Below are positions 12,770 to 29,957 of a stretch of 64,000 nucleotides of DNA, piece by piece (positions within the stretch are counted from its first letter, which is position 1; the number at the start of each line of letters is the position of its first letter). Made by a program: the position numbers and the translations under genes. A model generated the notes under the pieces. The model saw only the letters and a program-made list of their open reading frames with translations. It ran no database searches and had not been told where the DNA came from. Origin of the DNA: Methylobacterium aquaticum. GTDB lineage: Bacteria > Pseudomonadota > Alphaproteobacteria > Rhizobiales > Beijerinckiaceae. Where the stretch lies: assembly GCF_016804325.1 (NCBI RefSeq), contig NZ_CP043627.1, forward strand, positions 4,647,001-4,711,000, read 5' to 3'.

Positions 12770-13020
12770 TCTCCTCCCCAGGCGATCTCGGGCTTGCCCG
12801 AGATCGCTCAAGCTTGTGGGGAGGAGTTGGAGGTGGGGGTGGTGCCGGAGAAGCCTGAGCGGTGCCTTCTGCACCACCCCCACCCCTGACCCCTCCCCAC
12901 AAGGGGGAGGGGAAAGAACGTGACACTCACCCCTACCTCTCTCCCACACGGGAAAGGGGATCCCACGCTTGATTCTTAAAGGGATTCTACCCGGGCAGCC
13001 CCGCTCTCTGCGGGAAGGGG
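12770..13020. repeat. Cluster of nested palindromes in the 12669-13044 gap
   Basis: This gene-free stretch of 376 bases holds stacked inverted repeats. There is a perfect 12-bp stem GCGATCTCGGGC / GCCCGAGATCGC (12782-12793 with 12796-12807), and a larger unit 12814-12902 whose arms run TTGTGGGGAGG...GGTGGGGGTGGTGC and back. Then 12921-13020 is related to the sequence at 21424-21510 (CTCTCCCACACGGGA, GATCCC-CGCTTG, CCGGGCAGCCC). I see no gene here. Confidence 0.85.
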
Positions 13021-13044: not shown

Positions 13045-14145
13045 TCACGCCACCGACGCCAACCCCGCCCGATACGCCTCGACCGCGCGCGCCAGAGAGA
13101 CATCCGGCAGCGCCCGCTCCGCCGCCTCCCGCAGGCGCGCCCGCCCTCCGGGATCGTCGAGGAGCGCCAGCGTCGTGCCCGCCCAGTCCGCGACATCCAG
13201 CGGCCGCACCGTGCCGCAGCCGCGGGCCTCCAGCAATTCGCGGGCGGCGCCCGAATGGGGCGAGGCGAGGACGGCGGTGCCGCTCTGCAACGCCTCGTTG
13301 ACCACGATGCCCCAGACGTCGCCGCGGCTCGGGAACAGCAGCAGCCGGGCGGAGGTATGGGCCTCGGCCAGGGCCGATTGCGCGAGGTAGCCGTCGAACC
13401 GGGCCGGGATGCCGGCCTCGTCAAGGCGCGCCGCCATCTCGGCGCGGAGCGGGCCATCGCCGGCCACCCGCACCCGCAACGGGCGCCCGGCGGCGGCGCA
13501 GGCCCGCATCACGTCGGTGAAGAACCGCGCGCCCTTCACCTCCTCGTTGAGGATGCCGCAGAACAGGACGTCGTAGGGCCGGGTCTCGGGATCGGGCAGG
13601 GGCGGCGCGGGCTCCCAGGCCGGGAAGAGCGGTGCGCGGTGGATTCTCTCGGGGGCGAGCCCGTAGGAGGAGAGCAAAGTCCGGCTGCCCTCGCTCGCGG
13701 CGAGGCCGAAGGCGGCGCCCGGCACGATCACCCGGCGCAAGACGCGGTGCGCCGCGGACCGGGCGCCGGGATCGGTCTCCGGTACCCCGTCGGTCCGGAT
13801 CGCGTAGGGGATGCGCAGGGCCCGGGCGGTCAGCGCTGCCATCGCCATGGTGGGCGAGAAGTCGTTGAGGATCACCGCCGAGGGCCGCATTTGCGCGAGG
13901 CGCGGGACGACGCTCGGATTGACGTAGAGGTTGCGGACCGCGTCGCGGTGCCAGCGCAGGCCCGGCAGCACGGCGAAGCGGTAGCCGTCCGCCGCCGCCA
14001 GGTCCCATTGCCGGGCGGGCTCCCGGGCCGCGCAGGCGAGCACGGTGAGCGGCCGGTCGAGGGCGGCGGCGAGCGCCCGGTACAGCACCTGGGTGTAGGG
14101 GGCGAGCGCGCCGGTCACCACCACGACGGGACGCTCAGCGGGCAC
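13045..14145 (-). CDS. Glycosyltransferase, GT-B fold (group 1)
   Basis: 366 residues, normal for GT4-like enzymes. The N-terminal Rossmann domain begins VVVVTGALAPYTQVLYRAL. The C-terminal donor-binding domain has LFCGILNEEVKGARFF near residue 195 and the diagnostic LLLFPSRGDVWGIVVNEALQSG with the E-x7-E region near 275-295. It would transfer a sugar from a nucleotide donor to a growing lipid-linked glycan on the cytoplasmic face. It overlaps the deacetylase gene by 11 bases on the same strand, so both are probably made together for the adjacent polysaccharide pathway. Confidence 0.88.
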   Translation of the reverse strand: MPAERPVVVVTGALAPYTQVLYRALAAALDRPLTVLACAAREPARQWDLAAADGYRFAVLPGLRWHRDAVRNLYVNPSVVPRLAQMRPSAVILNDFSPTMAMAALTARALRIPYAIRTDGVPETDPGARSAAHRVLRRVIVPGAAFGLAASEGSRTLLSSYGLAPERIHRAPLFPAWEPAPPLPDPETRPYDVLFCGILNEEVKGARFFTDVMRACAAAGRPLRVRVAGDGPLRAEMAARLDEAGIPARFDGYLAQSALAEAHTSARLLLFPSRGDVWGIVVNEALQSGTAVLASPHSGAARELLEARGCGTVRPLDVADWAGTTLALLDDPGGRARLREAAERALPDVSLARAVEAYRAGLASVA

Positions 14146-14923
14146 GGGGGGCTCCCATCAGGGCGTCGAGCTCGTGCAGGGGCCATTCCGGCTCGAGGAC
14201 GTGGCGGGGCATCGCGAAAGCATCGTCGGCGCCGGTGGCGACGCCGCGGCGGGTGGTGAAGAAGGTGGTGTAGCCCGCGCCGCGCGCCAGGGCGGGGTCG
14301 CGGCCCGGCCGGTAATCGCGCTCCGCGACGCCCCAGGGGCAGGCGAAGTGCCGGATCGGCCGGCCCAGGGCGGCTTCGAGCGCGGTCCGCGACCCGGCGA
14401 TCTCCCGCTCGGCCTCGGCATCGTCGAGGGTGGCGATGCGGGCGTGGCTCGCGCTGTGCGAGCCGATCTCCATCCCGGCGGCGAGCCAGTCGTCCACCAG
14501 GGCCCGGCCGGCATAGGGGCCGGGTGGGTTCTCCGGGGGGGCATCGAGCCAGTCGCCGACGAGGAACAGGATCGCCGGCACCCCGGCGGCGCGCAGGACC
14601 GGCAAGGCGACCTCGACCGTGTCGGCATAGCCGTCGTCGAAGGTGACGAGGAAGTGCCGCTCCCGCGCGATCTCGCCGGACGACAGGAGCGCCACCGCCT
14701 CGTCCGCCCCGACGAAGCGGCCGTGCCGCTGCAAGAAGGCGACCTGCGCCGCGAACCCGGCGCGATGACGCTCCGGGACGTGGTGGTAGCACAGGGTGTA
14801 GAGGCCCGGCGGGGCATGGGTGAGGCGCCGCCAGCGCGAAAGCCCGCGCAGCAGCAGGGCCCGGACCACGGGATTGTCGCGGGCGAGGGTCTTGAGGGAG
14901 TGCAGCATCCCGTCCGCCACCAT
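14135..14923 (-). CDS. Polysaccharide deacetylase (NodB-homology domain)
   Basis: 262 residues from ATG 14923; ATG 14908 is an alternative start. The NodB motifs are visible: LVTFDDGYADT near residue 80 (catalytic and metal-binding Asp pair), EIGSHSASHARIATL near 135 (metal-binding His residues) and FACPWGVAERD near 180. The family removes N-acetyl groups from GlcNAc-type residues in a polymer. In Caulobacter the comparable enzyme HfsH deacetylates holdfast and makes it cohesive. It is coupled with a glycosyltransferase gene and diverges from the FemAB-flippase-polymerase operon. Confidence 0.88.
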   Translation of the reverse strand: MVADGMLHSLKTLARDNPVVRALLLRGLSRWRRLTHAPPGLYTLCYHHVPERHRAGFAAQVAFLQRHGRFVGADEAVALLSSGEIARERHFLVTFDDGYADTVEVALPVLRAAGVPAILFLVGDWLDAPPENPPGPYAGRALVDDWLAAGMEIGSHSASHARIATLDDAEAEREIAGSRTALEAALGRPIRHFACPWGVAERDYRPGRDPALARGAGYTTFFTTRRGVATGADDAFAMPRHVLEPEWPLHELDALMGAPRAR

Positions 14924-15117
14924 CGAAAAGACGTCCGCCGTAGGTGAGACCGGCCCAGTGCAGGGACAATCCAAGAAAATCACGTAGACCGGGGAAACCC
15001 CGTCGATGGCGGCCGATCGCGCGTGCCGTTCGGCCCGCCGACGGGGGGCGCGGTGCGCCGCTTGCGTCCTGGCGGCATCAGATACGGACGATGTCACATC
15101 CTGGCACGGGACCATCC

Positions 15118-16131
15118 ATGACCAAGACGGAACGTGAGACGGGATTGCGGGTCCTGGCGGTCACCGATGTCCCGACCTGGGACGAAGCCGTGTGGGAGCA
15201 AGCCCGCGGCAGCATTTTCGCGGCGTCGGGCTGGGGTACCTACAAGTCCCGGCGCGGCGCGGCCATCGAGCGGCTGAGCGTCGTCGACGAGAACGGCGAC
15301 GTGATGGGCCTGGCACAGGTGCAGCGCCGCCGCCGCGGCCCGGTCCGGCATTTCTACGTCCAGGGCGGGCCGCTCCTGACCGCGAAGGGCGAGCGCCACG
15401 GCGAGGCCGTCCTGCGCGCGCTCCTCGCCCATCTGGACCTCGGGCCGCTGGATCTGCTGGTGGCGGATGCCAACCGTACCGAGAGCCCAGGCACGGTGCT
15501 GGGCCTGCTGGCGACGGGGTTCCGGCCTGTCACGACCGCCGGCAGGCATACCCTGGAGGTGGACCTCGCCGGCGGCCTCGACGCGGTGCAGGCCGGGATG
15601 GAGCAGCGCTGGCGCAAGGCCCTGCGCAAGGCCGAGCGCAACCCGGCCCTGACGGTGCGCTTCCTCGACGACCCGGCCGAGCGGCTGGCCGCCTTCGACG
15701 CCTTCACGACGATGTATGCCTTGCTCAAGAGCCGCAAGGGCTTCTCGAACGACTTCGATCCCGGAGCCTACCGCGACCTCGCGGCGAACGATCCGCGCCA
15801 CGTCATGCTCGAAGTGCGGGACGGCGAGGAACTGTGCCTGGTGCGGATCGCGCATCTCAGCCGCGACCGCTTCACCGACTTCTTCACCGCCTCGACCGAA
15901 CGGGCCAAGGCGAATGCCGCCGCCTATCTGGCCGTATGGAGCTTCATCCGCCGCGCCGCCGAGGAGGGGTGCCGGATCTTCGATTTCGGCGGCATCGACC
16001 CGGCCGGCAACCGGGGCGTCTACGACTTCAAGCGCGGGCTCACCCGCAACGTCGCGTCGAGCGGGCCGCTCTGGCTCCATGGCCGCCACCGCCTCGTCAC
16101 GGCGGCGGCCGGGGCGGTGCTCGCCCGGTGA
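15118..16131 (+). CDS. FemAB-like/GNAT acyltransferase of polysaccharide locus
   Basis: 337 residues with a duplicated GNAT fold as in FemAB/FemX proteins. Signatures include GSIFAASGWGTYKSRRG near the N-terminus, RWRKALRKAERNPALTV near 165 and the C-terminal FDFGGIDPAGNRGVYDFKRG near 285, the last being the usual FemAB ending. Members near polysaccharide clusters N-acylate amino sugars or peptide groups; Caulobacter HfsK is of this type. I prefer ATG 15118, though ATG 15091 is in frame. It overlaps the flippase gene by four bases, showing a common transcript. Confidence 0.85.
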   Translation: MTKTERETGLRVLAVTDVPTWDEAVWEQARGSIFAASGWGTYKSRRGAAIERLSVVDENGDVMGLAQVQRRRRGPVRHFYVQGGPLLTAKGERHGEAVLRALLAHLDLGPLDLLVADANRTESPGTVLGLLATGFRPVTTAGRHTLEVDLAGGLDAVQAGMEQRWRKALRKAERNPALTVRFLDDPAERLAAFDAFTTMYALLKSRKGFSNDFDPGAYRDLAANDPRHVMLEVRDGEELCLVRIAHLSRDRFTDFFTASTERAKANAAAYLAVWSFIRRAAEEGCRIFDFGGIDPAGNRGVYDFKRGLTRNVASSGPLWLHGRHRLVTAAAGAVLAR

Positions 16132-17429
16132 CGGTCTCGTCCGCCCTCCGGGCCCGCTTGCGCGGCCCGGCCCTGCTCTCGCTCCTCGACCAGGGGGCCG
16201 TGAGCGGCTTCGGCTTCCTCGCCGGCATCGCGGCGGCGCGCCTGGTCGACATGGAGGGGTTCGGGCGCTTCGCCCTCGTGCTCATCGTCGCGGGCTTCGC
16301 GCAGGGGCTGCACAATGCGCTGGTCACCGCGCCGCTGATGACGCTCGCCGGCTCCGTCCGCGATCCGGCCCGCTACGCCGCTTCGGTCGGCGCCGGCGCC
16401 GTCGCGCTGGCGGCGGTCTTGAGCCTCGGGGTCGCGGGGGTGCTCGCCCTGTACTTCTCGGCCCGCGGCGAGGAGGTCCCGGTCGGCCTCGTCGCGGCCG
16501 CCGGCGCGCTCACCCTGTCGCAGAACCTCCAGCTCACCGCCCGGCGGCTGCTCTTCGCCTATGACGGGGGCTCCAGGGCCCTCGCGATGGACGTGGCCCG
16601 GGCCGCGGCGGCCCCGCTTACGGTCGCCGTTCTGTGGGCGGCCGGGATCCCGCTCGATGCGGCGGGGCTCGTCGCCGTCCTGGCCGTGACGGCGTTCCTG
16701 ACGACGCTGCCCGTGCTCCTCCGCCAAGCCCCCCGCACCGGGCGCCGGCGCCTCGCGCTGACCGCCCGACGCCACTGGCAGATGGCCCGCTGGCTGCTGC
16801 CGGTCGTCCTCGTCACCTTCGGGCAGGAGCAGCTGATCTGGATCCTGGCCGGCGGTGCCCTCGGCGACGAAGCCCTCGGGGGCTTGCGGGCGGCCCAGTA
16901 CCTCGTCGGCCTCGTGCTGCTGATGCTCGCCGCCACCGAGAACGTGGTGCCGACGGGCGCCGGCCGCGCCTACGAGACCGGCGGCGAGCCGGCGCTGCGG
17001 GCCTATCTCCTCGGCGTCACCCGGCGCCTCGGGGTTCCGGTGGGCTTCCTCCTCGCCGTCGTGGCTTTCCCGGCGGATCTCTGGCTGCGCCTCGTCTTCG
17101 GTGCGCCCTACGCCGCCTACGCATCCTGCCTGCGCTGGCTGGCGCTCGGCGTGGTCTTCATCTTCCTGCGGGACATGGTGGCACAGATCTTCCGGGCGCG
17201 GCGTCGCACCGACGTGATCTTTCGTGCCTTCGCGGCCAGCCTCGCGGTGTCGCTGGTGCTGATCCAGCCGCTGCTCGCCCGCTACGGCGCCGTGGGTGCC
17301 GCGGCGGTCGTGGCCCTGGCGCACGGCGCCTCGCTCGTCGCCCTCGTGGCGGCCCTGGCGAAAGCCCCGGCGCCCCGAGCCCCGAGCCACACGGCCCAGG
17401 CCTCGAGCCCGGAGAGCCCGCGATGCTGA
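16128..17429 (+). CDS. Polysaccharide flippase (Wzx/MOP superfamily)
   Basis: 433 residues from a GTG at 16128 that overlaps the previous stop. The protein has about 12-14 hydrophobic segments, beginning LSLLDQGAVSGFGFLAGIAA and including LLPVVLVTFGQEQLIWIL and LRWLALGVVFIFLRDMVAQI. This is the pattern of Wzx-type transporters that flip undecaprenyl-linked repeat units to the periplasm. It stands between the FemAB-like modifier and the polymerase, the expected place for a Wzx in a Wzx/Wzy pathway. It ends in a Pro/Ala/Ser-rich tail that overlaps the next gene by seven bases. Confidence 0.87.
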   Translation: MTVSSALRARLRGPALLSLLDQGAVSGFGFLAGIAAARLVDMEGFGRFALVLIVAGFAQGLHNALVTAPLMTLAGSVRDPARYAASVGAGAVALAAVLSLGVAGVLALYFSARGEEVPVGLVAAAGALTLSQNLQLTARRLLFAYDGGSRALAMDVARAAAAPLTVAVLWAAGIPLDAAGLVAVLAVTAFLTTLPVLLRQAPRTGRRRLALTARRHWQMARWLLPVVLVTFGQEQLIWILAGGALGDEALGGLRAAQYLVGLVLLMLAATENVVPTGAGRAYETGGEPALRAYLLGVTRRLGVPVGFLLAVVAFPADLWLRLVFGAPYAAYASCLRWLALGVVFIFLRDMVAQIFRARRRTDVIFRAFAASLAVSLVLIQPLLARYGAVGAAAVVALAHGASLVALVAALAKAPAPRAPSHTAQASSPESPRC

Positions 17430-18796
17430 ACGCCCTCATCGCCGTCGCGGTCGCGACCTGGTTCACGGTCGCCTATCCGGTCCTGCGCCGCCGCCTCGAG
17501 ACCCATCTGCCGTCGGGCGGCGCGCCCCTGTTCTGGCCGCTGGCGCTCACGGTGGTGTTCGCCTTCATGCCGCTCGTCTTCACGGTGCCGCGCGAGGACG
17601 GCAACGCCGTGCTGGAGCAGGGTCTGACGGCCTCGAACCTCGTCACCATCGTGCTCACCGGCCTCACGGCCTTCTACCTCGTCGTGAAGGTCGCGGCCGA
17701 CCGCCGCGTGCTGCTCCTGCCCTTCGCGATGCCCTACCTGCCGTTCACCCTGATGATCCTGGTGAACGGGATGAGCGCCGCCTGGTCGATCGTGCCGACC
17801 TACACGCTCTACCGCACCGCGGAACTGGCGGTGTTCACCCTCTCGTCGATCCTGATCTTCGACCGGCCGGACATCCGCCACCGCCTGGCCGACATCCTGG
17901 CGATGGTGACGCTCGCCTGGCTGGCCGCGGTGACGCCGGAGATCCTCCAGAGCCTGGCCTCGGGCATCGTGTTCTCCTCGGCCAAGAACAACATGATGCC
18001 GCTGGTCTGCGCGCTGCTGGGCTTTGCCGCCTGGTTCGGGCCGCCCAACCGGCGCCGCGGCCGCTACCTGGTCCTGGCCGCGATCGGCTTCGTCGTCGCG
18101 GGCTCGGCCGCCTCCACGGGGGCGCTGATCGGCGTCGGCCCGGCCCTGATGATCGCCTCGCGGCGCCCAGGCATCCGCGTCGCGGGCATCGTGCTGGCGC
18201 TCGTCTCGATCGCGCTGTTCCTGTTCCTGATGGTCGGCCTGTCGAGCTTTCCCGCGCTCCTCGATGCCCTCTCGGTCATCCTCCAGAAGCCCCGGGTGGA
18301 GCTCGCCAACGCCACCGGCCGCGGCCAGTTCTGGCCGACCTTCATCGCGGCGACGCAGGACCGCCTGCTCGGCTCCGGCTTCTCGGCCGCCGACCGCTTC
18401 GTGCAGCTCCTGATCCCGACTACCGAACTCGCCGACGAGCTCGGCCGCGACGCGGTGTTCATCACCAGCTCGCACAACATGTTCCTGAGCGCCTGGGCCG
18501 GCACCGGGATCATCGGCCTGTCCTTCGCGATCATGACCCTGATCGAGCCGATCCGCTTCGCCGCCCGCACCGATCGCGGCACCCGCCGCATCGTCGCCTG
18601 CCTGATCCTGATGCTCGCCCTCAACGGGCTGACCACGCCCGGGTTGTTCCAGGACTGGAACGTCAACGTGCTGGCCTACGTGGCGGTGCTCGCCACCGCG
18701 CGGGCGGCGCGGCGCGAGGCCGAGGCCGGCCGACGGGAGATCGCCGCTCCGCTCCCGTCCCCACGGGGGACGGGTCGGGCCTGGCCCGCGGCTTGA
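17423..18796 (+). CDS. O-antigen polymerase/ligase-like membrane protein (Wzy-type)
   Basis: 457 residues with about 11-12 hydrophobic helices and one large periplasmic loop (about residues 285-365) carrying NATGRGQFWPTFIAATQD and ITSSHNMFLSAWAGTG. The second motif, with its conserved His, is the hallmark of the Wzy_C/O-antigen ligase fold. Such proteins join repeat units into long chains in the periplasm. ATG 17423 follows a GGAGAG site. It overlaps the flippase gene and is followed after 97 bases by the Wzc-like gene, so polymerase and length regulator are probably coexpressed. Confidence 0.88.
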   Translation: MLNALIAVAVATWFTVAYPVLRRRLETHLPSGGAPLFWPLALTVVFAFMPLVFTVPREDGNAVLEQGLTASNLVTIVLTGLTAFYLVVKVAADRRVLLLPFAMPYLPFTLMILVNGMSAAWSIVPTYTLYRTAELAVFTLSSILIFDRPDIRHRLADILAMVTLAWLAAVTPEILQSLASGIVFSSAKNNMMPLVCALLGFAAWFGPPNRRRGRYLVLAAIGFVVAGSAASTGALIGVGPALMIASRRPGIRVAGIVLALVSIALFLFLMVGLSSFPALLDALSVILQKPRVELANATGRGQFWPTFIAATQDRLLGSGFSAADRFVQLLIPTTELADELGRDAVFITSSHNMFLSAWAGTGIIGLSFAIMTLIEPIRFAARTDRGTRRIVACLILMLALNGLTTPGLFQDWNVNVLAYVAVLATARAARREAEAGRREIAAPLPSPRGTGRAWPAA

Positions 18797-18893
18797 AGCG
18801 CAGGCGGCAAAGGGCCTGCCTGCCGCTCCGATCGTCCCGGAATGGTACAGGTCCGACCCGCAGCGAGAGCCTTTGGGGAGCCTCGGGCCCATC

Positions 18894-21029
18894 ATGACCA
18901 TGGTCGAGAATGTCCGCAGCGGGCTGCTCGTCGGCGCCGCCCCGCGGGAGGGACAGGAAGACGGGGAGCGCACGCGGGAGCCCTGGTTCCTCGATCCGCG
19001 GGAGATCCTGCGCACCGTGCGCCTGCGCTGGTTCACGGTGCTCCTGCCCGTGCTCCTGTGCCTCGGCCTCGCCGCGGCCTGGATGCACCTGAACCCGCCG
19101 CTCTACACCGCCTCGACGCAGATCCTGATCGACCCGCGCGGGTTGCAGGTGGTCAAGGACGGCCTGACCCCGCCGGACCAGGCGAGCGACGCGAGCCTGC
19201 TCTTCGTCGACAGCCAGCTCCGGGTGCTCACCTCCGACGACGTGCTCGGCCGCGTGGTGGACCGGTTCGACCTCGCCCGCGACCCCGAGTTCCAGGGCCG
19301 CTTCACCCTGGTCGGCGCGGCCCGCGACCTCGTCGCGCGCATCACCGGGCGCACCGAGCCGCCGGTCGAGCCCCGGCTGACGGCGCTCCGCATCCTGCGC
19401 GACCGGGTCGGGGCGCGGCGCCTGGAGCGCAGCTTCGTGCTGGAGCTCGGCGTGACCTCCGACGACCGGGAGAAGGCCGCCCGCCTCGCCGGCGGCATCG
19501 CCGAGACCTACCTCGCCCGCGATGCCGCCACCCGCTCCGAGACGACCCGCAAGGCCGGCGCGGCGATCGAGAGCCGGCTCGCCGAGCTGCGGGCCGACCT
19601 GCGCAAGGCCGAGGACAAGGCGCAGGCGTTCCGGGCCAAGCACAACCTCGTCGGCACCCGCACCCAGCTGGTGAGCGAGCAGCAGCTGACCCAGTTGAGC
19701 GAGCAGCTCGGCGCTGCCCGCGCCCGGGCGCTCGAGGCCGGCTCCCGGATGCGCCAGGTCGAGGGCGTGCTCACCGGCGGGCGCTTCGATTCCGCCAACG
19801 AGATCGTCACCAACCCGACCATCACCGCCTTGCGCGGCCAGCTCGCCGGCGTCGAGCGCCTGCGCGCCGATGCCGAGGAGACGCTGGGCAAGCGCCATCC
19901 GAGCTACATGGCGGCTCTGGTGCAGGAGAAGGCCCTGCGCGCGGCGATCGAGGCCGAGATCCGCCGCATCGCGGCGGCGAGCCGCAACGACTTCGAGGCC
20001 GCCCAGGCGAGCGCGAAGGTGCTGGCCACCACGCTGGAGCGGCGCAAGGCCGATGCCTTGAAGGTCGGCGACGACTTCGTGCAGCTGCGCGAGCTGGAGC
20101 GCCAGGCCGATGCGAGCCGGGCGGTCTACGAGGCCTTCCTGGTCCGCGCCCGGGAGTTGCAGGAGCAGCAGCGCCTCGACACCTCGGCCTCGCGGATCAT
20201 CTCGGCCGCCTCGCCGCCGGAGAAGCGCATCGGCCCGCCGACGCCAGTCCTGTTCGTGGCCGCCCTCGTCGCCGGCTCGGGGCTGGGCCTCGTCGGCGCC
20301 CTCGCGCTCGAACTGCTCGCCGGCCGGGTCCGCTCGCGCCGGCGCCTGGAAGGCCATCTCGGCCGCTCCGGCCTCGATGCCCTGCCGCGTGCCCCCCGCA
20401 CGGCCGCGAAGGCCGCCGCCCTCAAGGCCGATTTCGGCAGCGCCCGGGGCGATCTTCCCTACGAGGTGGCGGTCTCGCGCCTGCGCCACCGCCTCGCCGC
20501 CGCCGAACCGGGGGCCAAGCCCCTCGTCGTCCTCGTCACCGCGGGCGACGACCGGGCCGGCAAGTCGGTGCTGGCCCGCTCGCTCGCCCTCTCGGCGGCG
20601 GCCGACCGTGAGCGGGTGATCCTGGTCGATGCCGACCCCAAGGGGCTGCTCACCCGCGACCTCGGGGCCGCCGCGCCCCGGGACCTCGCCGGCCTCCTGC
20701 GCAGCCGCGCGCCGCTGGGCGACGCCCTGGTGACCCTGCCGTCCGGCCTCAGGGTGCTGCCCCGCCCCGCCGGCCTGCCGCGGGACCTCGCCGGCAACCT
20801 CGCCGACGCGCTCCTGCGCAGCGACGCCGACCTCGTCGTGGTCGATCTCGGCCTCGTCGGCGGCGACGTGGTGACCGAGCGCCTGATCGCCGAGGAGCGC
20901 ATCCCGATGCTGCTGCTCGCCGTCAGCGCGCGGCGCAGCCGGTTCTCGGCGGTGGACCGGGCGCTCAAGGCGATCGGCCCAGGCCGGCGGCCGCGGGTGG
21001 TGGTGACGGATGCGGATTTGCGGGAGTAG
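18894..21029 (+). CDS. Wzc/GumC-like polysaccharide co-polymerase with tyrosine-kinase-type ATPase domain
   Basis: 711 residues from ATG 18894 (GGGGAG 13 bases upstream; TTG 18873 is possible). One helix near 45-65 and another near 460-480 bracket a long periplasmic part with a Wzz motif (LYTASTQILIDPRG) and extended coiled coils. The C-terminal domain has a P-loop GDDRAGKS near 560, a Walker A' aspartate pair in LVDADPKG and a Walker B-like LVVVDLGLV. It ends VVVTDADLRE with no tyrosine cluster, so autophosphorylation of a C-terminal tail is unlikely. Role: chain length and export control, like HfsA/HfsB or ExoP. Confidence 0.88.
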   Translation: MTMVENVRSGLLVGAAPREGQEDGERTREPWFLDPREILRTVRLRWFTVLLPVLLCLGLAAAWMHLNPPLYTASTQILIDPRGLQVVKDGLTPPDQASDASLLFVDSQLRVLTSDDVLGRVVDRFDLARDPEFQGRFTLVGAARDLVARITGRTEPPVEPRLTALRILRDRVGARRLERSFVLELGVTSDDREKAARLAGGIAETYLARDAATRSETTRKAGAAIESRLAELRADLRKAEDKAQAFRAKHNLVGTRTQLVSEQQLTQLSEQLGAARARALEAGSRMRQVEGVLTGGRFDSANEIVTNPTITALRGQLAGVERLRADAEETLGKRHPSYMAALVQEKALRAAIEAEIRRIAAASRNDFEAAQASAKVLATTLERRKADALKVGDDFVQLRELERQADASRAVYEAFLVRARELQEQQRLDTSASRIISAASPPEKRIGPPTPVLFVAALVAGSGLGLVGALALELLAGRVRSRRRLEGHLGRSGLDALPRAPRTAAKAAALKADFGSARGDLPYEVAVSRLRHRLAAAEPGAKPLVVLVTAGDDRAGKSVLARSLALSAAADRERVILVDADPKGLLTRDLGAAAPRDLAGLLRSRAPLGDALVTLPSGLRVLPRPAGLPRDLAGNLADALLRSDADLVVVDLGLVGGDVVTERLIAEERIPMLLLAVSARRSRFSAVDRALKAIGPGRRPRVVVTDADLRE

Positions 21030-21074
21030 GGGGATGCCGTTCTCCCAAGACGTTGCTGTTTAGGGGAAAGAACA

Positions 21075-21312
21075 GGCGCGGGTTTCCCCCTCCCCCCTCT
21101 GCGGGGGAGGGTGGCCTGCGGCGAGTGCGCAGCACTCGTGCCAGGCCGGGAGAGGGGACGCCGCTTCCGGATAAGACTGGACCGTTCTGAAGGGCGCCAT
21201 CTGGAACAGCGTCGCGCTGCCCCTCTCGGCGGGACTGCGTCCCGCTGCCCCGGCTCCGCCGGTCACCCTCCCCCGCAGAGGCAGGGCTGTCCGGGGAAAA
21301 CTGTGGCGCGCC
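21075..21312 (+). repeat. Terminal-inverted-repeat element, family A, copy 1
   Basis: One of three related elements in this window. It starts GGCGCGGGTTTCCC, goes into CCTCCCCCCTCTGCGGGGGA, has a core with CGCCGCTTCCGGA and GTCGCGCTGCCCCTCTC, and closes with the inverse of its start. Each end is also a hairpin by itself. The 628-base gap 21030-21657 holds this element and the compound palindrome after it, and no gene. Confidence 0.85.
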
Positions 21313-21512
21313 TCCCCTCTCCCGTGTGGGAGAGGGGTCGGGGGTGAGGGTGACGCGCTTCCGTGCAAGGCTGTAAACGTTGTGCTGGCAGCTCTACGGT
21401 ACGCGCTATACGCGGCACCGTAGCACCCTCACCCCTACCCCTCTCCCACACGGGAGAGGGGATCCCGCGCTTGGTTCTAAAGGGGATTTTCCCCGGACAG
21501 CCCTGCCGCACA
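21281..21512. repeat. Large compound palindrome, family B
   Basis: GCAGGGCTGTCCGGGGAAAA at 21281-21300 is matched exactly by its inverse at 21487-21506. Inside, 21313-21352 (CTCTCCCGTGTGGGAGAGG...GTGAGGGTG) is matched by 21424-21463. Related single arms lie at 12921-13020 and, inverted and diverged, at 36210-36272. The left end is shared with family A copy 1. Confidence 0.85.
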
Positions 21513-21657
21513 GGGGGGAGGGAAAACCCGCGCCTCGACTGTCCCCGGATCGCCTCGGTCACGAGGTAAAGACGATTCAGGCGCCTCATATCGCGACTCG
21601 AGGCGCGACAGGGCCGCATCCCGCCCCCGAACCCGCCAGGCTCCGAGACACCCCACC

Positions 21658-23645
21658 ATGCGGACCCTGCTCCTCCTCGCCGCCCTCCTCGCCGCCCCCC
21701 GGCCATGGCCGCCCCGATCGAGATCCGGGTCGCCGCCGAGGGCGCGCGGCCCTCGCCGGGCGGCACCGCCACCCTCGCCGAGGCCCTGGGTGAAGCCCGC
21801 CGCCGGCGCGCCCGCGATCCCGGCGCGGCGATCGTCGTCGCGCTGTCCTCCGGCACGCACCGCCTCGCCGCCCCCGTGCGGCTCGGGAGCCAGGATGGCG
21901 GCAAAGCCGGGGCGCCGCTGGTGATCCGCGGCCCCGCCGACGGGTCGGCCCGCCTCGTCGGCAGCCGGCGCCTCGCGCCGGTTCCGCTCGATCCGGCGCT
22001 GGCGGCCCGCCTGCCGGCGGCGGCGCGGGGCCATGTCCGGGCCTACCGGCTGCCCCCCTCGGCCAAGGCGCCGGCGCGAATCCAGGCGCCGATCGTCCTC
22101 AACGGTCCGCCGACACCCCCCGCCTTCGAGGTCTTCGACGGCGAGGGCGCGATGCATCCGGCGCGCTGGCCGGCGGAGGGCTTCGCCAAGGCCGAAGGCG
22201 GCGACGGGCCGGCCTTCACCGTGTCGGGCCTCCCGCCGGGCGCGCTCAGTGGCGAGCCCGACCTGTGGGCGGAAGGCTATTGGCGCTGGGGCTGGCTGTT
22301 CGAGGCGCTGCCGGTGATCCGCACCGCGCCGACGGGAGCGGGCACGCGCCTTACCCTCGACCGCACGCCCTACGAGGGCATCCGCCCGGGCGCGCCCGTC
22401 CGCCTCGTCCACCTGCTCGCCGGCCTCGACCGGCCCGGGACGTGGTGGCGCGACGCGAAGGCCGGGATCTTGCTCGCCTGGCCGCGGGGGGCCGAGGAGA
22501 CCGTCGAGGTGTCGGTCGCCGAGACGCTGCTGTCGGTCGAGGGCGCGTCCCACCTGCGGGTCGAATCGCTGCGCCTCGCCATGGCCCGGGGCGACCTCGT
22601 GACCGTACGCGGCGGGCGCGACGTGGTGATCGCCGACAGCGTGCTCTCGCTGACCGGCGGGCGCGGGGCGGTGTTCACGGGCACGCAAGACAGCGGGCTC
22701 CAGCGCTGCGACATCGCCGGGACCGGTGCCGAGGGCGTGGTGCTCTCGGGCGGCGACCGGCGCACGCTCACCCCCGGCGGGCTGTTCCTGCGCGACAGCC
22801 GGCTTACCGGCTACGCCCGCCGGGAGCGGACGCAGCACCCGGCCGTTGCGCTGGACGGCGTCGGCGCCGAGGTGGCGGGCAACTACATCCACGATTCGCC
22901 GGCCTACGCGGTCCACATCCGCGGCAACGACCACCGGGTGACGGGGAACGAGGTCGCCAACCTGCTCGCCGGGGCCACCGATAGCGGGGCGATCTATTCC
23001 GGCCGGGACTGGACCGCCCGGGGCGGCGTGATCGCGAACAACCTCCTGCACGACATCCGGGGCGGGCCCGAGACCGAGGTGAAGGGGGTCTACCTCGACG
23101 ACATGGCGAGCGGGTTCACCGTCACCGGCAACCTCTTCCTGCGGGTCGACCAGCCGGTCTTCCTCGGCGGCGGGCGCGACAACCGCGTCGATGGCAACGT
23201 CTTCGTCGCGTCGAGCCCGGCGATCCACGTCGATTCCCGCGGGCAGACCTGGGCCCGCGACGCGGTCACCGATCCGCAATCGGAGTTGCGCGCCGCCTAT
23301 GCGGCGATGCCGGTCGAGTCCCCGGTCTGGCGGGCGCGCTACCCGCGCCTCCCCGGCCTGCTCTACGACCGCCCGGCGGTCGCGACCGGCAACGTCGTCA
23401 CCGACAACCTGATCGTCCTGAGCGATCCCCCCCGCTTCACCGATGGCGGCGAGGCGGCCGAGCAGAATCTGGCCCGCAACCGCGGCCCGGCGAAGATCCC
23501 CGCCGGTCTGGAGGCGCTGGCACGGACCTCGGTGAACCCGGCGGATTTCGCCGGGCTCGCCGTCGGCAGCGGCGTCAGACTGCCGACGATCCCGTTCGAT
23601 CGGATGCGCCGCTCCGCGACGGCCGGGGCGCCTTTCGGGCGCTGA
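21658..23645 (+). CDS. Secreted right-handed parallel beta-helix protein, signal peptide out of frame
   Basis: The main frame is open from ATG 21705 to 23645 (646 residues) and starts MAAPIEIRVAAEG. The middle (residues about 280-520) has regularly spaced hydrophobic-Asn rungs such as NYIHDSPAYAVHIRGNDHRV and GNEVANLLAGATDSGAIYSG, typical of pectate-lyase-like beta-helices (lyases, epimerases, deacetylases). Just upstream in another frame is a perfect signal peptide start, ATG 21658, MRTLLLLAALLAAP. One more C in the C6 run at 21695-21700 would join them and give an A-M-A|A cleavage site. It may trim or modify the neighbouring polysaccharide. The 3' end overlaps the convergent WecG gene by 71 bases. 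Confidence 0.75.
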
Positions 23646-24405
23646 CCGCATCCCGCGCCGCGATCAGGAGGAAGCGCGGGATCGTGTCCAGGTAGCGCCG
23701 CCACAGGCGCCGGGGCTCGCGGGCGAGGCGATAGGCCCATTCGAGCCCGGCGACCTGGAGCATCTTCGGGGCCCGCGGGATGCGCCCGGTCGCGACGTCG
23801 AAGGCCGCACCCACTCCCATGGCGATGGTGCCCGGCAGGTAGGGGGCATGCGCCGCCATGAACAATTCCTGCTTCGGGGTGCCGAGGCCGACCCAGACGA
23901 TCTGCGCCCCGGACGCACGGATGCGCTCGCGCATCGCCTCGGTCTCGGCCTCGGAGAGGGGGCGGAAGGGCGGGGTCTCGACACCGGCGACCTGGAGGCC
24001 CGGTATCCGGGCCCGCATCGTCGTGGCGAGCAGGTCGGCGACGCCCTCGCCCCCGCCGAGGAAGTAGTGGCGCCAGCCCGTATCCGCGCCGGCCCGGCAC
24101 AGGGCCTCGACCGATTCGATCCCCGGCACCTGCTGCGTGGCGGCAAGGCCCCGCCAGCGGCCGATCCAGCTCACCGGACGGCCATCGGCACAGACCAGCA
24201 AGGCCTCGTGATGGGCGGCGCGCAACGCCTCGTCCGTCTGCGCGCGCACGACGCCGTGGGCATCGCGAAAGACCACGAAGGTGCCGGGCTGGCCCGGCCC
24301 GGCGGCGAGCCGGCGCCCGACCGACGCGATCAGCCCGTCCATGTCGATGGCCGAGACCGGAACGCCACCGATCGTGAAGGAGGAGACGAGGGGATCGTGT
24401 GCCAC
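23575..24405 (-). CDS. WecG/TagA/CpsF family glycosyltransferase
   Basis: 276 residues from a GTG at 24405; the family similarity begins at FTIGGVPVSAIDMDGL. Diagnostic segments are VCADGRPVSWIGRWRG near residue 70, HYFLGGGEGVADLL near 105, VWVGLGTPKQELFMAAH near 160 and MGVGAAFDVATGRIPRAP near 185. WecG/TagA enzymes transfer ManNAcA or ManNAc to lipid-linked GlcNAc; Caulobacter HfsJ belongs here. It is 5 bases downstream of the glycosyltransferase gene, so the two form one minus-strand unit. Its last 24 codons overlap the end of the beta-helix gene on the other strand. Confidence 0.87.
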   Translation of the reverse strand: MAHDPLVSSFTIGGVPVSAIDMDGLIASVGRRLAAGPGQPGTFVVFRDAHGVVRAQTDEALRAAHHEALLVCADGRPVSWIGRWRGLAATQQVPGIESVEALCRAGADTGWRHYFLGGGEGVADLLATTMRARIPGLQVAGVETPPFRPLSEAETEAMRERIRASGAQIVWVGLGTPKQELFMAAHAPYLPGTIAMGVGAAFDVATGRIPRAPKMLQVAGLEWAYRLAREPRRLWRRYLDTIPRFLLIAARDAVSARKAPRPSRSGASDRTGSSAV

Positions 24406-24410
24406 TGAGG

Positions 24411-25618
24411 TCAGGTTCCCGTTCTGGTGGAGGACGCGGACGGCCCTGCCGCACGGGCGGCGACGGCGTCGCGGTAGATGTCGAGGAGGGCGCGGGTGGC
24501 GACGTCCTCGTGCCACTCGCGCTCGTAGACGGTGCGGGCCGCCCGCCCCATGGCGGCCGCCGCCGCGGGATCGCCCGCGATGCGCGCGAGCGCGCGTCCG
24601 AGATCGGACGCGTCGCCTGGCTCGGCGAGGAGCCCCGTCGCGCCGTCGGCGACGAGGCCCGCGAGCGCCCCGATGCGCGAGGCGACGACCGGGGTGCCGG
24701 CGGCGAAGGCCTCCGCCACCACCATCGGCAGCCCCTCGTACCAGAGCGACGGCACGACGAGGGCCGCGGCCCGCGCCATCGCCGCCTGGACCGCGTCCGG
24801 GGGCAGGGCGCCCGTCAGGTCGAGGGCAGGGTGATCGGCGAGGGCGCCCGCGAGCGGTCCCTCGCCGATCACCGTGATCCGCGCGCCCGCCCGGGCAGCC
24901 GCCTCGGCCAGCACGGTCACGCCCTTCTCGGGGCTGAGCCGGCCAACATAGAGGAGACCCCGGCGCGGCCCGTCCGCGGGCGGCCCCGGATCGGGCAGCC
25001 CGTTCGGCCGGATGCGGATTTTTTCCGCCGGGAACCCCGCCGCGACGAAGCGCTCGCGGGCAAACGGCGTGAGCGCGATGAAGCGGTCGACGTCCCGCCG
25101 CCAGGTCCCGGCCCGGCGATGGTGGTCGATCATCCGGGCGACCGCGAGCGTGCCGACCCGCGAGCCGCGATAGCAGGCGAACTGCACCGCCCGGTAGGGC
25201 GAGCCGGTGACGCAGATCTCGCACGGCGCGCCGTCCCGCATCAGGAAGGCGTTGGCGCAGATCAGGCGGTAATTGTGCAGCGTCTGCACCGTGGCGAAGT
25301 CGGCCGCACGCGCCGCCGCGTGGATGCCGGGCGAGAGCAGCGGGAAGAAGTTGTGGACGTGGACCACGTCCGGCGCGAAGCGGCGCGCCGCCGCCATCAC
25401 CCGGGCGATGCCGTCGGGCGCATGCGTCGCCGCGACCGCCGCCCGCAGGCGCGCGAGCCCGGAATCGATCGCCTCGTTGTCGAGGAACACCGCCTCGACG
25501 GCGCAGCCCGCCCGTTCGAGGGCGGCGAGGTCCCGGGCCACGGCGGCATCCTCGCCGCCGCGGACCTGGTAGCGGTTGTGGGCGACGAGGATGCGCAGCT
25601 TTGGGGGGCGGTGGTCAT
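24411..25618 (-). CDS. Glycosyltransferase family 4, apparent frameshift just after the start
   Basis: The readable frame from a GTG at 25541 gives 376 residues, but the true N-terminus lies upstream: KLRILVAHNRYQVRGGED is in the same frame yet has no start codon before the stop at 25664-25662. An ATG at 25618 (MTTAP) is in the neighbouring frame. One more G in the G6 run at 25603-25608 would join them to MTTAPPKLRILVAHNRY. The rest is a normal GT4: VVHVHNFFPLLSPGI, LYVGRLSPEKGVTVLAEAA, and VVPSLWYEGLPMVVAEAFA with the E-x7-E motif. It is coupled to the WecG gene and probably extends the same glycan. Confidence 0.75.
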
Positions 25619-25674
25619 CGGGGGTGCCCGTGCGCGTCCGTGCCGGTGATCGGCGGGGCGTTCAGCGGGACGAC

Positions 25675-25897
25675 ATGGCGCGGGTCTCTCCCTCCCCCCT
25701 CTGCGGGAAAGGGTGACCTGCGGCGAGTGCGCAGCACTCGTGCCAGGCCGGGCGAGGGGGCGCCGCTTCCGGATAAAACCGAACCGTTCTGAAGGGTATT
25801 CCCTGGACGGGCGTCGCGCTGCCCCTCTCGGCGGGACTTCGTCCCGCTGCGCTCGCCACCCTCCCCCGCAGAGGGGGGAGGGGGAAAACCGCGCCAT
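25675..25897 (+). repeat. Terminal-inverted-repeat element, family A, copy 2
   Basis: The clearest copy. It begins ATGGCGCGGGT and ends CCGCGCCAT, with inner arms CCCTCCCCCCTCTGCGGG and CCCGCAGAGGGGGGAGGG. Its core (GCGAGTGCGCAGCACTCGTG, then CGCCGCTTCCGGATAA) is nearly identical to copy 1. It sits between two minus-strand polysaccharide genes. The rest of the gap, 25898-26393, holds no gene that I can support. Confidence 0.85.
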
Positions 25898-26393
25898 CTT
25901 GGCTCATGACGGCCCTGCGCCGCCGAAGCCGAATCCCGCAGGGACGCACCATCGTGGCCGATCCGTACCATCCTGGTCGTCACCGCTCCCATCCCGCTCT
26001 CCGCGCTCCGCCCAGGACAATAGACCGCTCGCCTTGGCGAGCTGGAGCGATCCCATGGCGAGATCATCCGGCCCGGTGCCGCCGTCATCCCGAAGAGATT
26101 CGGGGCGATAGCCGACCGGACGGCATGGAAATAACGCGTTACGTGATGGAAATTCAGTTGCGGAGGACTACCGACAGCAAGAAATCGGGCCGTTCCGACA
26201 CATCTCGTCGGACCGATCGGGAACGAACCGTCCCTGACAGGCCAAAATCCTGCAGAAGGATTCCGCTGCGATCACAGCGACCTACCCGCACTCCGCCACG
26301 GCCGGGGGGCCGTCGGCCCAAACGGGCCGCCGGCGCCGGGCGCCGTCCGGGGTGTGACGCGATGTCCGGGCCGTCAGCCCCGGTCGCCACCCG

Positions 26394-27379
26394 TCAAGAC
26401 CGTCCCCCGGCCAGGATCGCCTCGACGACCTCCTGCACCTCCAGCGCCTCGCCCAAGGTCGCAAGCGCGTGGGGTTCGCCCCTCGTCATCCGCACCACGC
26501 CCTCGAGCTGGCGCCGCAGGGCGATCGGGCGGGCGCGCTCGTTCGGGATCGCGTCGGGCGCGGGCGCAAAGGTGCCGTCCCGTTCCTGCCGCTCGGCGAT
26601 CGCCCAGTCGCGCAGGCGGATCGTCCCGGCCTCGCCCTCCAGCGTCCAGGTGTTGTGGTCGTCGAGGGTCGTCTCGCCGACCCGGCCGCGCAGGACCACC
26701 GGCACGGCGCCGGCCCGGAACGTCGCATCGACGGCGCGCTCGGACCGGCCGGGCTCCGGAAACACGGCCTGCGCCTGAAGCTCCCGCAGGGGCCCGAGCA
26801 GGCGGCGGCTGAGGAACAGGAAATGCGACACCACCTCGCGGGTGAAGCCGCCCTCCTGCGGCGCGTCGAGCCAGCCGGCGGCGTCGCTCTGCCAGCCCCG
26901 CGGCCAGCGGGCGAAGGCGACCTCGATGGTCAGGCGGCGGGGCGTGCCGACGGCGCCATCGGCGATCCACTGCGCCAGGGTGGCGACACCGAGGGAGGAG
27001 GCGAAGGGGAAGTTCACCGCCCCGCGCTCGCCGGCCGTCGCCACGAAGTCGCGGGCCTCGGCGAGGTCGACGGCGAGGGGCTTCTCGCAGAAGACGCTCC
27101 GCCCTGCGGCCAGGGCCGCCCGGGCATGGCCGAGATGAGAGGCCGGCGGGGAGGCGATGTAGACGCACGCGCTCGCCGCCACGACCGAGGCGGCCTCCGT
27201 CACGAGCGGCAGGTCGGGGAGCGCGCGGCGATGCGCGCCCGCGCCGCCGGGTCCGGGTCCCACAGGGCCGCGATCCGGACCGGGCCTTCGTCCTGCCCGA
27301 GGACGGCGTTCAGCATGCGCTCGCCCATGATGCCGGCGCCGATGATGCCGAGGGCGAGGGGTGGGGAGGGCTGGCGCAT
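26394..27379 (-). pseudogene. Gfo/Idh/MocA family oxidoreductase with apparent frameshift
   Basis: From ATG 27379 (AGGAG 6 bases upstream) the frame reads MRQPSPPLALGIIGAGIMGE, a Rossmann GxGxxG start, to about residue 52 and then stops soon after. From about 27215 downward the neighbouring frame continues with VYIASPPASHLGHARAAL, FCEKPLAVDLAEAR (the EKP motif with its catalytic Lys) and a C-terminal domain ending at 26394. One more base in the G4 run at 27216-27219 restores a single 328-residue protein. These NAD(P)-dependent enzymes modify sugars, for instance making UDP-sugar acids. It is probably a donor-sugar enzyme for the polysaccharide locus. Confidence 0.72.
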
Positions 27380-28052: not shown

Positions 28053-29957
28053 TCACCGCTCCGGCAGGCCGGCCCGGCGCAATCCGTCGTAGATCCGCTC
28101 GCGCTGGGCGAGGAAGGTCGGGTCGCCCGAGGTCAGCTTGCGGTAGCGCGCGATCGTGTAGCCGGGCCGGAGCGTCAGGAACCGGGCGAGGGAGGCCCGC
28201 GCCTCCGCCTCCCGGCCGAGCCGCGCGAAGGCGCAGGCGAGGTAGAGATGCGGGAAGTCGAAGAGCGGGTTCACCGCGGCCGCGCGTTGCAGGGCCGGGA
28301 TCGCCGCCTCGTCCCGGCCGAGATGGAGCTTTGCCAGCCCGTCCCGCGCCAGCCACGCGCCGACCAGCGGGTCCTTCGGGCTCAGGCGGAGGGCCGCCGC
28401 GATGTCGGCCTCCGTCTCCTCCGCCCGGCCGAGGAAGATGTGGATCAGCCCGCGATAGGCATGCGCCCGGGCGAAGCTCGGGTTGAGGGCGAGCACCCGG
28501 TCGAAGGCGGCCAGCGCCTCGGGGTAGCGGGCCCGGGCGCGCAGGGTCTCGCCGCGCAGGTAATGCGCGAAGGGATGGGTCGGGTCGTCCCGCAGCACGG
28601 CGGCGACGGCCTGCTCGGCCCGGTCGAGATCGCCCTCGCGCTCGCCCGTCCAGCCGTTCAGCACCCCGTCGACCAGCACCTCGGCGAGGCCCAGCCGGGC
28701 ATGGGCGTTGACGGGATCGAGGGCGAGGGCGCGCTCGAACAGGGGCCGGGCCCCGGCATGGTTCTCCCGGGCGAAGGGCCGGTTGAGCAGGGCCTGGCCG
28801 CGCATGACGAGGTCGACCGCATCGGCCGGGTGGCCGGCGCGCCCTTGCGTGGCGGCTTCCAGCAGGCGGATGCCGAGCGCCCGGCCGACCTGGGCGATCA
28901 GCGCGTCCTGCGCGGCGGCGAGATCGGCGCGTGCGCCGTCGAAGCGGTCGGCCCAGAGGGCGGCGCCGGTCTCGACGTCGGTGAGCTGCACGGCGAAGCG
29001 CACCTGCCCGGCGCCGTGGCGCAGGCTGCCCTGCACGACGTAGCGCACCCCGAGCTCCCGGCCGACGGCGCGAGGCGCGACCGGCCGCCCCTCGTAGGAC
29101 CGGGCCGTGCCGTGGGCGATGACGAAGGTGCCGGGCGCCCGGGCGAGATCGGCGGAGAGGTCCTCGGCGATCTGCTCGGCGAGGTAATCCTGCTCCGGGT
29201 CGCCGCTCTGGTTGGCGAGCGGCAGGACGACGAGGGACAGAGGCGGCCGCGCGGGCTCGCCCGAAACGGTCGGCGTACCGGCCGGCGACGCCATCCCCCG
29301 ACGCTCGGGCGCGACGTGGGGCCAGGCCAGGCCCCCGGCGAGGCCGAGGCCTGCGAGGAGCAGGGCGGCGAGGGCGGGCCGCGGGAGCCGGATCCGCGAC
29401 ACGGCCGCCTCCGGCGACGGCACGGCGTAGATGCGCACCGGCCGGGCGATGTTCTTGAGGCGCTGCGCGCCGAGATCGACGAAGCGGATGTCGGGCCGGT
29501 CGCTCACTTCCCGGTAGGCGGCTTCCGAGAGGCGCAGGCCCCCGGGCTCGGCCGCCGCCTGCAGGCGGGCCGCGATGTTGACGCCGTCGCCGAACAGGTC
29601 GCCCTCGTGCACCATCACGTCGCCGAGATGGATGCCGATGCGCAGGCGGAACCGCCCCGCATGCCCCTTGGCCTCGGCGAGCGCCCGCTGGACAGCCAGG
29701 GCGCAGGCGACGGCATCCGGCACGCGGGCGAACTCGGCGAGCACGCTGTCCCCCGCCGTGTTGGCGATCCGTCCGTGATGCGCCGAGATCAGATGGTCGG
29801 CGATCTTGCGGGTGGCCTGGAGGGCCTGCATGGCGCCGCGCTCGTCGTCGTGCATCGCCTTCGAATAGCCGGCGATGTCGGCGGCGAAGATCGCCGCCGG
29901 ACGACGCTCCGGGGTCGGCCATTCCGGTGCGGCGGACCGGTTCGTCCGCTCGCTCAC
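28053..29957 (-). CDS. Adenylate/guanylate cyclase domain protein with TPR repeats
   Basis: 634 residues from GTG 29957 (TTG 29978 would add seven). Residues about 20-165 are a class III cyclase domain: AAIFAADIAGYSKAM with the metal-binding Asp, NTAGDSVLAEF, and LRIGIHLGDVMVHEGDLFGD. One hydrophobic helix follows near 195-212. Then comes a CadC-like/FlgO-type domain (LVVLPLANQSGDPEQDYLAEQ, residues about 240-370) and TPR repeats (ALDPVNAHARLGLAEVL, LALNPSFARAHAYRGLIHI). It is a common rhizobial architecture, anchored in the inner membrane. Whether it makes cAMP is unproven. It is divergent from the chemoreceptor gene. Confidence 0.88.
   Translation of the reverse strand: MSERTNRSAAPEWPTPERRPAAIFAADIAGYSKAMHDDERGAMQALQATRKIADHLISAHHGRIANTAGDSVLAEFARVPDAVACALAVQRALAEAKGHAGRFRLRIGIHLGDVMVHEGDLFGDGVNIAARLQAAAEPGGLRLSEAAYREVSDRPDIRFVDLGAQRLKNIARPVRIYAVPSPEAAVSRIRLPRPALAALLLAGLGLAGGLAWPHVAPERRGMASPAGTPTVSGEPARPPLSLVVLPLANQSGDPEQDYLAEQIAEDLSADLARAPGTFVIAHGTARSYEGRPVAPRAVGRELGVRYVVQGSLRHGAGQVRFAVQLTDVETGAALWADRFDGARADLAAAQDALIAQVGRALGIRLLEAATQGRAGHPADAVDLVMRGQALLNRPFARENHAGARPLFERALALDPVNAHARLGLAEVLVDGVLNGWTGEREGDLDRAEQAVAAVLRDDPTHPFAHYLRGETLRARARYPEALAAFDRVLALNPSFARAHAYRGLIHIFLGRAEETEADIAAALRLSPKDPLVGAWLARDGLAKLHLGRDEAAIPALQRAAAVNPLFDFPHLYLACAFARLGREAEARASLARFLTLRPGYTIARYRKLTSGDPTFLAQRERIYDGLRRAGLPER

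Follow-up and report, generated by a model that had tools for sequence, protein, structure and literature searches.

What does a compact set of polysaccharide genes make, and how does its product leave the cell, when the set includes a beta-helix protein but lacks both an exporter and a priming transferase? This question is raised by a 64,000-nt stretch of the 7.28 Mb genome of Methylobacterium aquaticum (G000:C1:4647001-4711000, hereafter the window), which harbors a ten-gene polysaccharide module at 13.0-27.5 kb. The first-pass annotation had linked these genes to the Caulobacter holdfast (Hfs) set by family membership and treated the beta-helix protein, here named bhx, as an addition. We consider it fairly likely that the locus is a Wzy-dependent exopolysaccharide module that carries its own hydrolase and is primed and exported from other loci. 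Of most interest are the occurrence of a GH141-like hydrolase in a locus for synthesis and the recurrent absence of genes for export and priming.

A Wzy-dependent module with ten conserved genes

Families were assigned by Pfam and NCBIfam searches, in which "over cut-off" refers to each family's own threshold. The genes proposed in the first-pass annotation were all recovered at nearly the same coordinates, with Pfam families over cut-off for every one except wzx:

13045..14145, minus strand: gtA, GT4-type glycosyltransferase (366 aa); Pfam Glyco_trans_1_4, 64.1 bits
14135..14923 (alternative start 15115), minus strand: deac, NodB-type polysaccharide deacetylase; Polysacc_deac_1, 80.7 bits
15091..16131, plus strand: fem, FemAB/GNAT-type acyltransferase; Acetyltransf_6, 52.1 bits, and FemAB, 46.1 bits
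16128..17429, plus strand: wzx, predicted lipid-linked oligosaccharide flippase; 10 predicted hydrophobic segments, model match to WzxE
17423..18796, plus strand: wzy, O-antigen-ligase-family polymerase; Wzy_C, 40.2 bits, 9 hydrophobic segments
18894..21029, plus strand: wzc, chain-length co-polymerase fused to a P-loop ATPase; Wzz, 33.1 bits
21705..23645, plus strand: bhx, GH141-like beta-helix protein; Beta_helix, 37.5 bits
23575..24441, minus strand: wecG, WecG/TagA/CpsF (GT26) transferase; Glyco_tran_WecG, 189.3 bits, and TIGR00696, 142.2 bits (cut-off 69)
24411..25541, minus strand: gtB, GT4-type glycosyltransferase (376 aa); Glyco_trans_1_4, 93.7 bits
26394..27455, minus strand: idh, Gfo/Idh/MocA-family oxidoreductase; GFO_IDH_MocA, 46.1 bits, from residue 82 onward

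The genes gtA and deac, both on the minus strand, overlap by 11 bases, and fem, wzx and wzy diverge from them with short overlaps, wzc being next. The convergent bhx and wecG overlap by 71 bases at their tails, wecG and gtB also overlap, and idh lies beyond gtB. Wzx, Wzy, a co-polymerase and glycosyltransferases, the combination by which we recognise the Wzy-dependent pathway, are thus found together and, judged from its sequence, the locus is a Wzy-dependent polysaccharide module.

A scan of named genomes with bhx yielded 27 relative loci, 18 of them flanked by 9 kb or more on each side, and their gene orders were compared by tblastn, with thresholds of 35% identity and 150 bits for calling a gene beside bhx. 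Five named Methylobacterium loci (L020, L021, L022, L025 and L027) carry all ten genes in an unchanged order, at about 74-92% identity over the main segments, so the gene set is not due to chance; a sixth locus, L026, has the same ten genes with one block inverted.

The beta-helix gene as a core member

At least one other module gene adjoins bhx in 26 of the 27 named loci, the exception being L028, with none. Among the 18 loci with full flanks, wzx and wzc were found near bhx in 15 each, deac in 14, and gtA, fem and wzy in 12 each; wecG and gtB were near it in five each and idh in four. The conserved linkage spans Methylobacterium, Methylorubrum and Lichenibacterium, and most Methylorubrum loci have bhx directly after wzc. 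The genes gtA-deac-fem-wzx-wzy-wzc form one block that moves and inverts together (inverted in L026, separate from bhx in genome G024), and bhx-wecG-gtB-idh form a second one in the clade of the window.

Across 61 genomes of relatives, bhx was present in 11 and a strong wzy match in nine (10 genomes matched wzy, and the weak match of G008 was excluded), both being present in eight. Three genomes (G001, G029 and G044) carry bhx without a wzy match, yet in all of them gtA adjoins bhx. G044, from another family, shows the row WecG, GT4-like gene, deacetylase, bhx, gtA and second deacetylase, with the GT4-like gene and the second deacetylase identified by eye. Among 385 genomes sampled across the class, the sole full-length bhx match was in its own genome, and six of the 384 others gave weak partial matches. 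When loci are compared, the identity of bhx correlates with that of five module genes (Spearman 0.67-0.83 over 14 loci, a measure that ignores kinship). From the linkage in the relative loci and the G044 row, bhx is a core, conserved member of the module and not an addition to it, so that calling it "added" put the emphasis in the wrong place.

bhx resembles GH141 hydrolases

BT_1002 was the top match of bhx by profile search (E 3.8e-12), by Foldseek with the predicted structure (predicted local distance difference test score, pLDDT, 86.5) and by VIA, at 19% identity. The two proteins align over 480 residues, against 270-373 for nearly all other matches shown. The fold match runs along the whole protein and the N-terminal sequence also matches GH141, so that by model and profile bhx has the GH141 fold.

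The published catalytic aspartates are D523/D564 in BT_1002 and D540/D577 in Xyn141E (PMC10154630, PMC5593877, PMC12786026), spaced by 41 and 37 residues respectively. In bhx, numbered from the translation of window:21660-23642, D441 and D480 are similarly spaced, by 39, and their motifs are present in all 27 named loci and in all ten further relatives (L009-L018; 37/37 in total). Both residues pair with Asp residues of PDB 9rx2 in the profile alignment, where the core has an E-value of 0.073 and the pairing with BT_1002 runs via 9rx2 alone. D441 and D480 are therefore presented as a candidate catalytic pair of the GH141 type. Besides, the bhx model has a strand-rich stretch at about residues 127-285, inferred from secondary structure, where BT_1002 has an inserted beta-sandwich (residues 109-295, figure legend of PMC10154630).

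The fold of bhx is also common to AlgE epimerases, PL6 lyases, RbmB and AlgG, and its core aligns weakly to known enzymes, both of which would suit an epimerase, a lyase or a polysaccharide-binding protein in place of a hydrolase. We regard this alternative as doubtful, although worth bearing in mind, as BT_1002 ranks first by the three methods with the longest alignment, and the strand-rich stretch is placed like the beta-sandwich insert of that enzyme.

Known GH141 members degrade rhamnogalacturonan II, xylan or fucoidan (PMC10154630, PMC5593877, PMC12786026), whereas bhx is encoded in a polysaccharide synthesis locus and probably cuts the module's own polymer. By analogy, such self-cutting has precedents in WceF, RbmB and PrmQ. 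WceF of Pantoea stewartii is a beta-helix hydrolase encoded, like bhx, in an exopolysaccharide (stewartan) synthesis cluster (PMC7949094), and RbmB of Vibrio is a beta-helix lyase that cuts the exopolysaccharide of its own bacterium (PMC11637428); WceF is, however, similar to the tailspikes of phages, and bhx is matched better by BT_1002 than by either. PrmQ is a GH16 protein of the promonan (prm) cluster of Sphingomonas sp. LM7, deletion of which alters colony form, the colonies being rugose (PMC11340318). The prm system shares with the module its Wzy-dependence, a WecG-family transferase, Wzx, Wzy, a co-polymerase, an acyltransferase and genes for secreted glycosyl hydrolases in the cluster, but differs in that a Wza and a priming enzyme are also encoded there, its transferases being of GT2 and its hydrolases of GH16/GH10; neither a deacetylase nor a beta-helix protein is named in the description used (PMC11340318).

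No exporter or priming gene in the locus

The first-pass annotation had placed the exporter and the priming transferase outside the window and had read the system as split across loci, and both points were borne out. Neither function was found within the locus: the window has no PF02563 (Wza) or PF02397 (priming) match, and four PF02563 and three PF02397 matches lie elsewhere in the genome. In the flanks of the 27 relative loci, no exporter or priming gene was found by tblastn (E 1e-6) with eight queries, five of Wza type (HfsD among them) and three for priming enzymes; proteins that have diverged further, or genes located past the flanks, would escape this search. From this 27-locus result, the lack is a steady feature within the examined flanks.

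The best candidate for a partner locus lies at 3.30 Mb (L049), where a WcaJ-type priming enzyme is encoded together with a GT4 enzyme, a Wza of short length and another Wzc. This priming enzyme scored 484 bits on the WcaJ model (cut-off 411) and 325 bits on the HfsE model.

Assignment of the exporter by co-occurrence failed. The Wza encoded at 4.80 Mb (L050) had a match above 500 bits in 25 of the 37 genomes from the same genus, far more than carry the module, the remaining ones showing fragments or little. For a Wza-HlyD protein (L048), close relatives (87-91%) occur in just three further genomes, all of one clade and all with the module, so that clade and module are indistinguishable for it. 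L050 (G000:C1:4795901-4797067) and L047 (2528704-2529933) encode two Wza-type proteins that resemble each other, and inspection by eye recognised no polysaccharide genes around them. Priming of the WecA type close to the window was also rejected, as the PF00953 match 39 kb upstream of the locus is MraY in a cell-division cluster; the other PF00953 match is a WbpL/WecA-like protein at 3.41 Mb (both named by eye from gene context).

A locus without Wza, with a Wzy of the O-antigen ligase family, might instead make O-antigen or another glycan linked to lipopolysaccharide. This seems highly improbable, given that Wza-type proteins are encoded elsewhere in the genome and that the co-polymerase has a P-loop ATPase part and finds its best matches in TIGR01005 (exopolysaccharide transport family; 207 bits, under cut-off) and EpsF. 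O-antigen Wzz proteins are not known to carry such an ATPase part. GNVR and CbiA of Pfam also score under cut-off on this Wzc-like protein, which has no tyrosine beyond residue 523 of its 711 residues and is thus unlikely, from its sequence, to act as a conventional tyrosine autokinase.

Relation to the holdfast set

The holdfast link was examined with the NCBIfam models HfsE, HfsF, HfsG and HfsH. Among the ten module proteins there was no HfsF match for Wzx and no HfsG match for gtA or gtB, and deac gave 23.8 bits on HfsH (cut-off 400), below its scores on PgaB (47.3), PdaB and NodB. A whole-genome search returned deac as the sole HfsH match, at about 23 bits, and a best HfsF match of 59 bits at 3.74 Mb. 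Among the controls, that of Caulobacter was the one genome over the HfsF cut-off, and one of four matching control genomes was over that of HfsH.

An HfsH search of 190 genomes of the class gave none over cut-off and pointed to another alphaproteobacterium (G155), in which HfsF, HfsG and HfsH are adjacent and lie close to genes of the Wza, Wzy and Wzc types (locus L080). This locus was used as the hfs yardstick despite scores (HfsF 400, HfsG 248 and HfsH 207 bits) that are all under the NCBI cut-offs of 700, 500 and 400. BLASTP of the ten module proteins against 17 called L080 proteins gave a single weak match, between Wzc and HfsA (25%, 38 bits), and profile-profile probabilities against Hfs proteins were 2.7% and 17%, from shallow alignments with single sequences as targets. 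The 17% alignment, between deac and HfsH, still lines up the NodB motifs, so these two proteins are remote members of a single family.

A holdfast by orthology was therefore rejected, as the HfsF, HfsG and HfsH models, which score high on L080, give weak or no matches in the module, where no orthologues of these three proteins were found; descent of the module from the holdfast set is not supported by its sequences. Family membership did not sustain the link that had been drawn from it, and best profile matches outside the Hfs/Upp sets, which the first-pass annotation had itself named as evidence against that link, are what was found for Hfs, deac scoring higher on PgaB, PdaB and NodB.

The WecG of the window is about 37% identical to the sole WecG of G155, the presumed HfsJ, which is near the family background. 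Of two WecGs of its own genome that were compared, it is the closer to this HfsJ candidate (119 vs 101 bits), and in a 15-sequence tree with few well-supported branches it clusters with WecGs of bhx loci (100/100), apart from the candidate.

A holdfast-like polar adhesin, or one of the unipolar polysaccharide (UPP) type, might nevertheless be made through a non-orthologous, functionally equivalent pathway. The functional classes are those of the holdfast list in the first-pass annotation, and the window WecG is nearer to the HfsJ candidate than one paralogue is. Within PMC11340318, holdfast synthesis is thought to begin from undecaprenyl pyrophosphate-linked glucose (UndPP-Glc), and WecGs of R. 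leguminosarum, B. ovis and P. inhibens replace HfsJ in complementation of hfsJ, while those of promonan and E. coli do not; the WcaJ-type enzyme at 3.30 Mb gives its 325 bits on HfsE under a cut-off of 750. The UPP cluster of rhizobia (uppABCDEF) is, likewise, an incomplete and split Wzy-type pathway, with uppC apart in Bradyrhizobium (PMC4018554, PMC12727192), although in this likeness, drawn by description and not by sequence comparison, UPP cores include the priming and export genes, exactly those outside the present module. On the other hand, no relationship to HfsF, HfsG or HfsH rises above background, HfsG is GT2-like whereas gtA and gtB are GT4, the WecG tree groups the window copy with those of bhx loci, and the module is present in a minority of the genus sample. 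We thus judge such an adhesin unlikely. Compared with the Caulobacter holdfast, what is shared is Wzy-type assembly, a deacetylase, an acyltransferase and a WecG-family transferase; HfsA and HfsB, separate in L080, are a single fused protein in the module, and the exporter lies inside the hfs cluster and outside the module.

Proposed pathway

In the exopolysaccharide pathway that we favor, for which the order of steps and the partner enzymes are inferred, a lipid-linked unit would be started by a phosphoglycosyltransferase from another locus, and the WcaJ-type enzyme at 3.30 Mb is a good candidate for it; WecG, gtA and gtB would then lengthen the unit. Wzx would flip the unit, Wzy would polymerise it and the Wzc-like protein would set the chain length. 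The NodB-type deacetylase and the FemAB-type enzyme may modify amino sugars by deacetylation and acylation, and the polymer would exit through a Wza encoded elsewhere. Secreted to the periplasm or outside, bhx would cut the same polymer by means of its candidate D441/D480 pair, with a putative role in the control of chain length or stiffness, or in the clearing of misplaced polymer.

More tentatively, the module may be a "headless" one without its own exporter or priming gene, into which a GH141-type hydrolase was recruited as a built-in part of exopolysaccharide synthesis. It would connect to a WcaJ-Wza locus used in common, and a single cell-surface export line could then be switched between polymers by module acquisition. 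The locus allows the sharing of one export line by exporter-less polysaccharide modules to be examined, and offers a second setting for GH141, synthesis, in addition to the known one of degradation. Methylobacteria inhabit leaves, soil and man-made surfaces, and the locus names a candidate enzyme for cutting their biofilm polymer; a literature search found no publication on a Wzy-type polysaccharide locus of these bacteria.

Individual products and reading frames

Several products were characterized further. Wzx had no Pfam or NCBIfam match, and its predicted structure (pLDDT 85.8) was best matched by the lipid III flippase WzxE (E 4.2e-7; template modeling, TM, scores 0.70/0.73), followed by MurJ; the model identifies it as a flippase closest to these two proteins. 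The deac motifs FDDGY, H...H, FACPWG and MPRH are conserved in all eight aligned rows; FDDGY and H...H are the metal and catalytic motifs of NodB, so that deac shows the features of a NodB-type (CE4) enzyme. For fem, the top NCBIfam match was the XrtA-associated FemAB (35.1 bits, under cut-off).

The sugar dehydrogenase of Idh/MocA type proposed in the first-pass annotation is present as a family gene, but its reading frame is broken as deposited: three-frame reading places the N-terminal Rossmann part in a different frame, with the break within 27100-27300. The gene is uninterrupted in all nine relative copies examined. Similarly, the signal-peptide ATG of bhx (21658) is here out of frame with the remainder, the break lying at 21658-21710 near a run of C, and is in frame in relatives such as L019-L022, L024 and L026. 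Either break could be an assembly error or real.

Repeats, neighbouring gene and a ligase cassette

One intergenic repeat family brackets bhx-wecG-gtB:

21058..21248, no strand: intergenic repeat (191 bases); second copy at 25660-25850, 86% identical

A second family has copies at 12923-13004 and 21425-21506 (82 bases, 87%). Both families mark the edges of those gene blocks whose place or orientation differs in relatives, and might mediate these rearrangements.

Beyond the module, a minus-strand gene at 28056-29978 gave partial matches, both under cut-off, to the adenylate-cyclase end of the LipJ model and to a tetratricopeptide repeat (TPR) protein model. It is conserved, and adjoins idh in L026 too.

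Near the polysaccharide module in six relative loci (L036, L037, L038, L039, L041 and L052), upstream of wzy-wzc-bhx or beside bhx, there is a cassette encoding an amino acid--[acyl-carrier-protein] ligase, a small carrier-like protein, an AMP-ligase, a short-chain dehydrogenase/reductase (SDR) and a GNAT-like protein. The cassette was not seen in the window or in the other fetched loci, the rest of the M. aquaticum genome not having been searched for it. The L038 ligase scored 472 bits in NCBIfam (cut-off 357) and matched PDB 3mey with an E-value of 1.9e-135. In an alphaproteobacterium of unrelated descent, a similar cassette (L082:9016-18442) adjoins a deacetylase of the HfsH family (154 bits), which suggests that the ligases of these cassettes may feed aminoacyl decoration of a polysaccharide.

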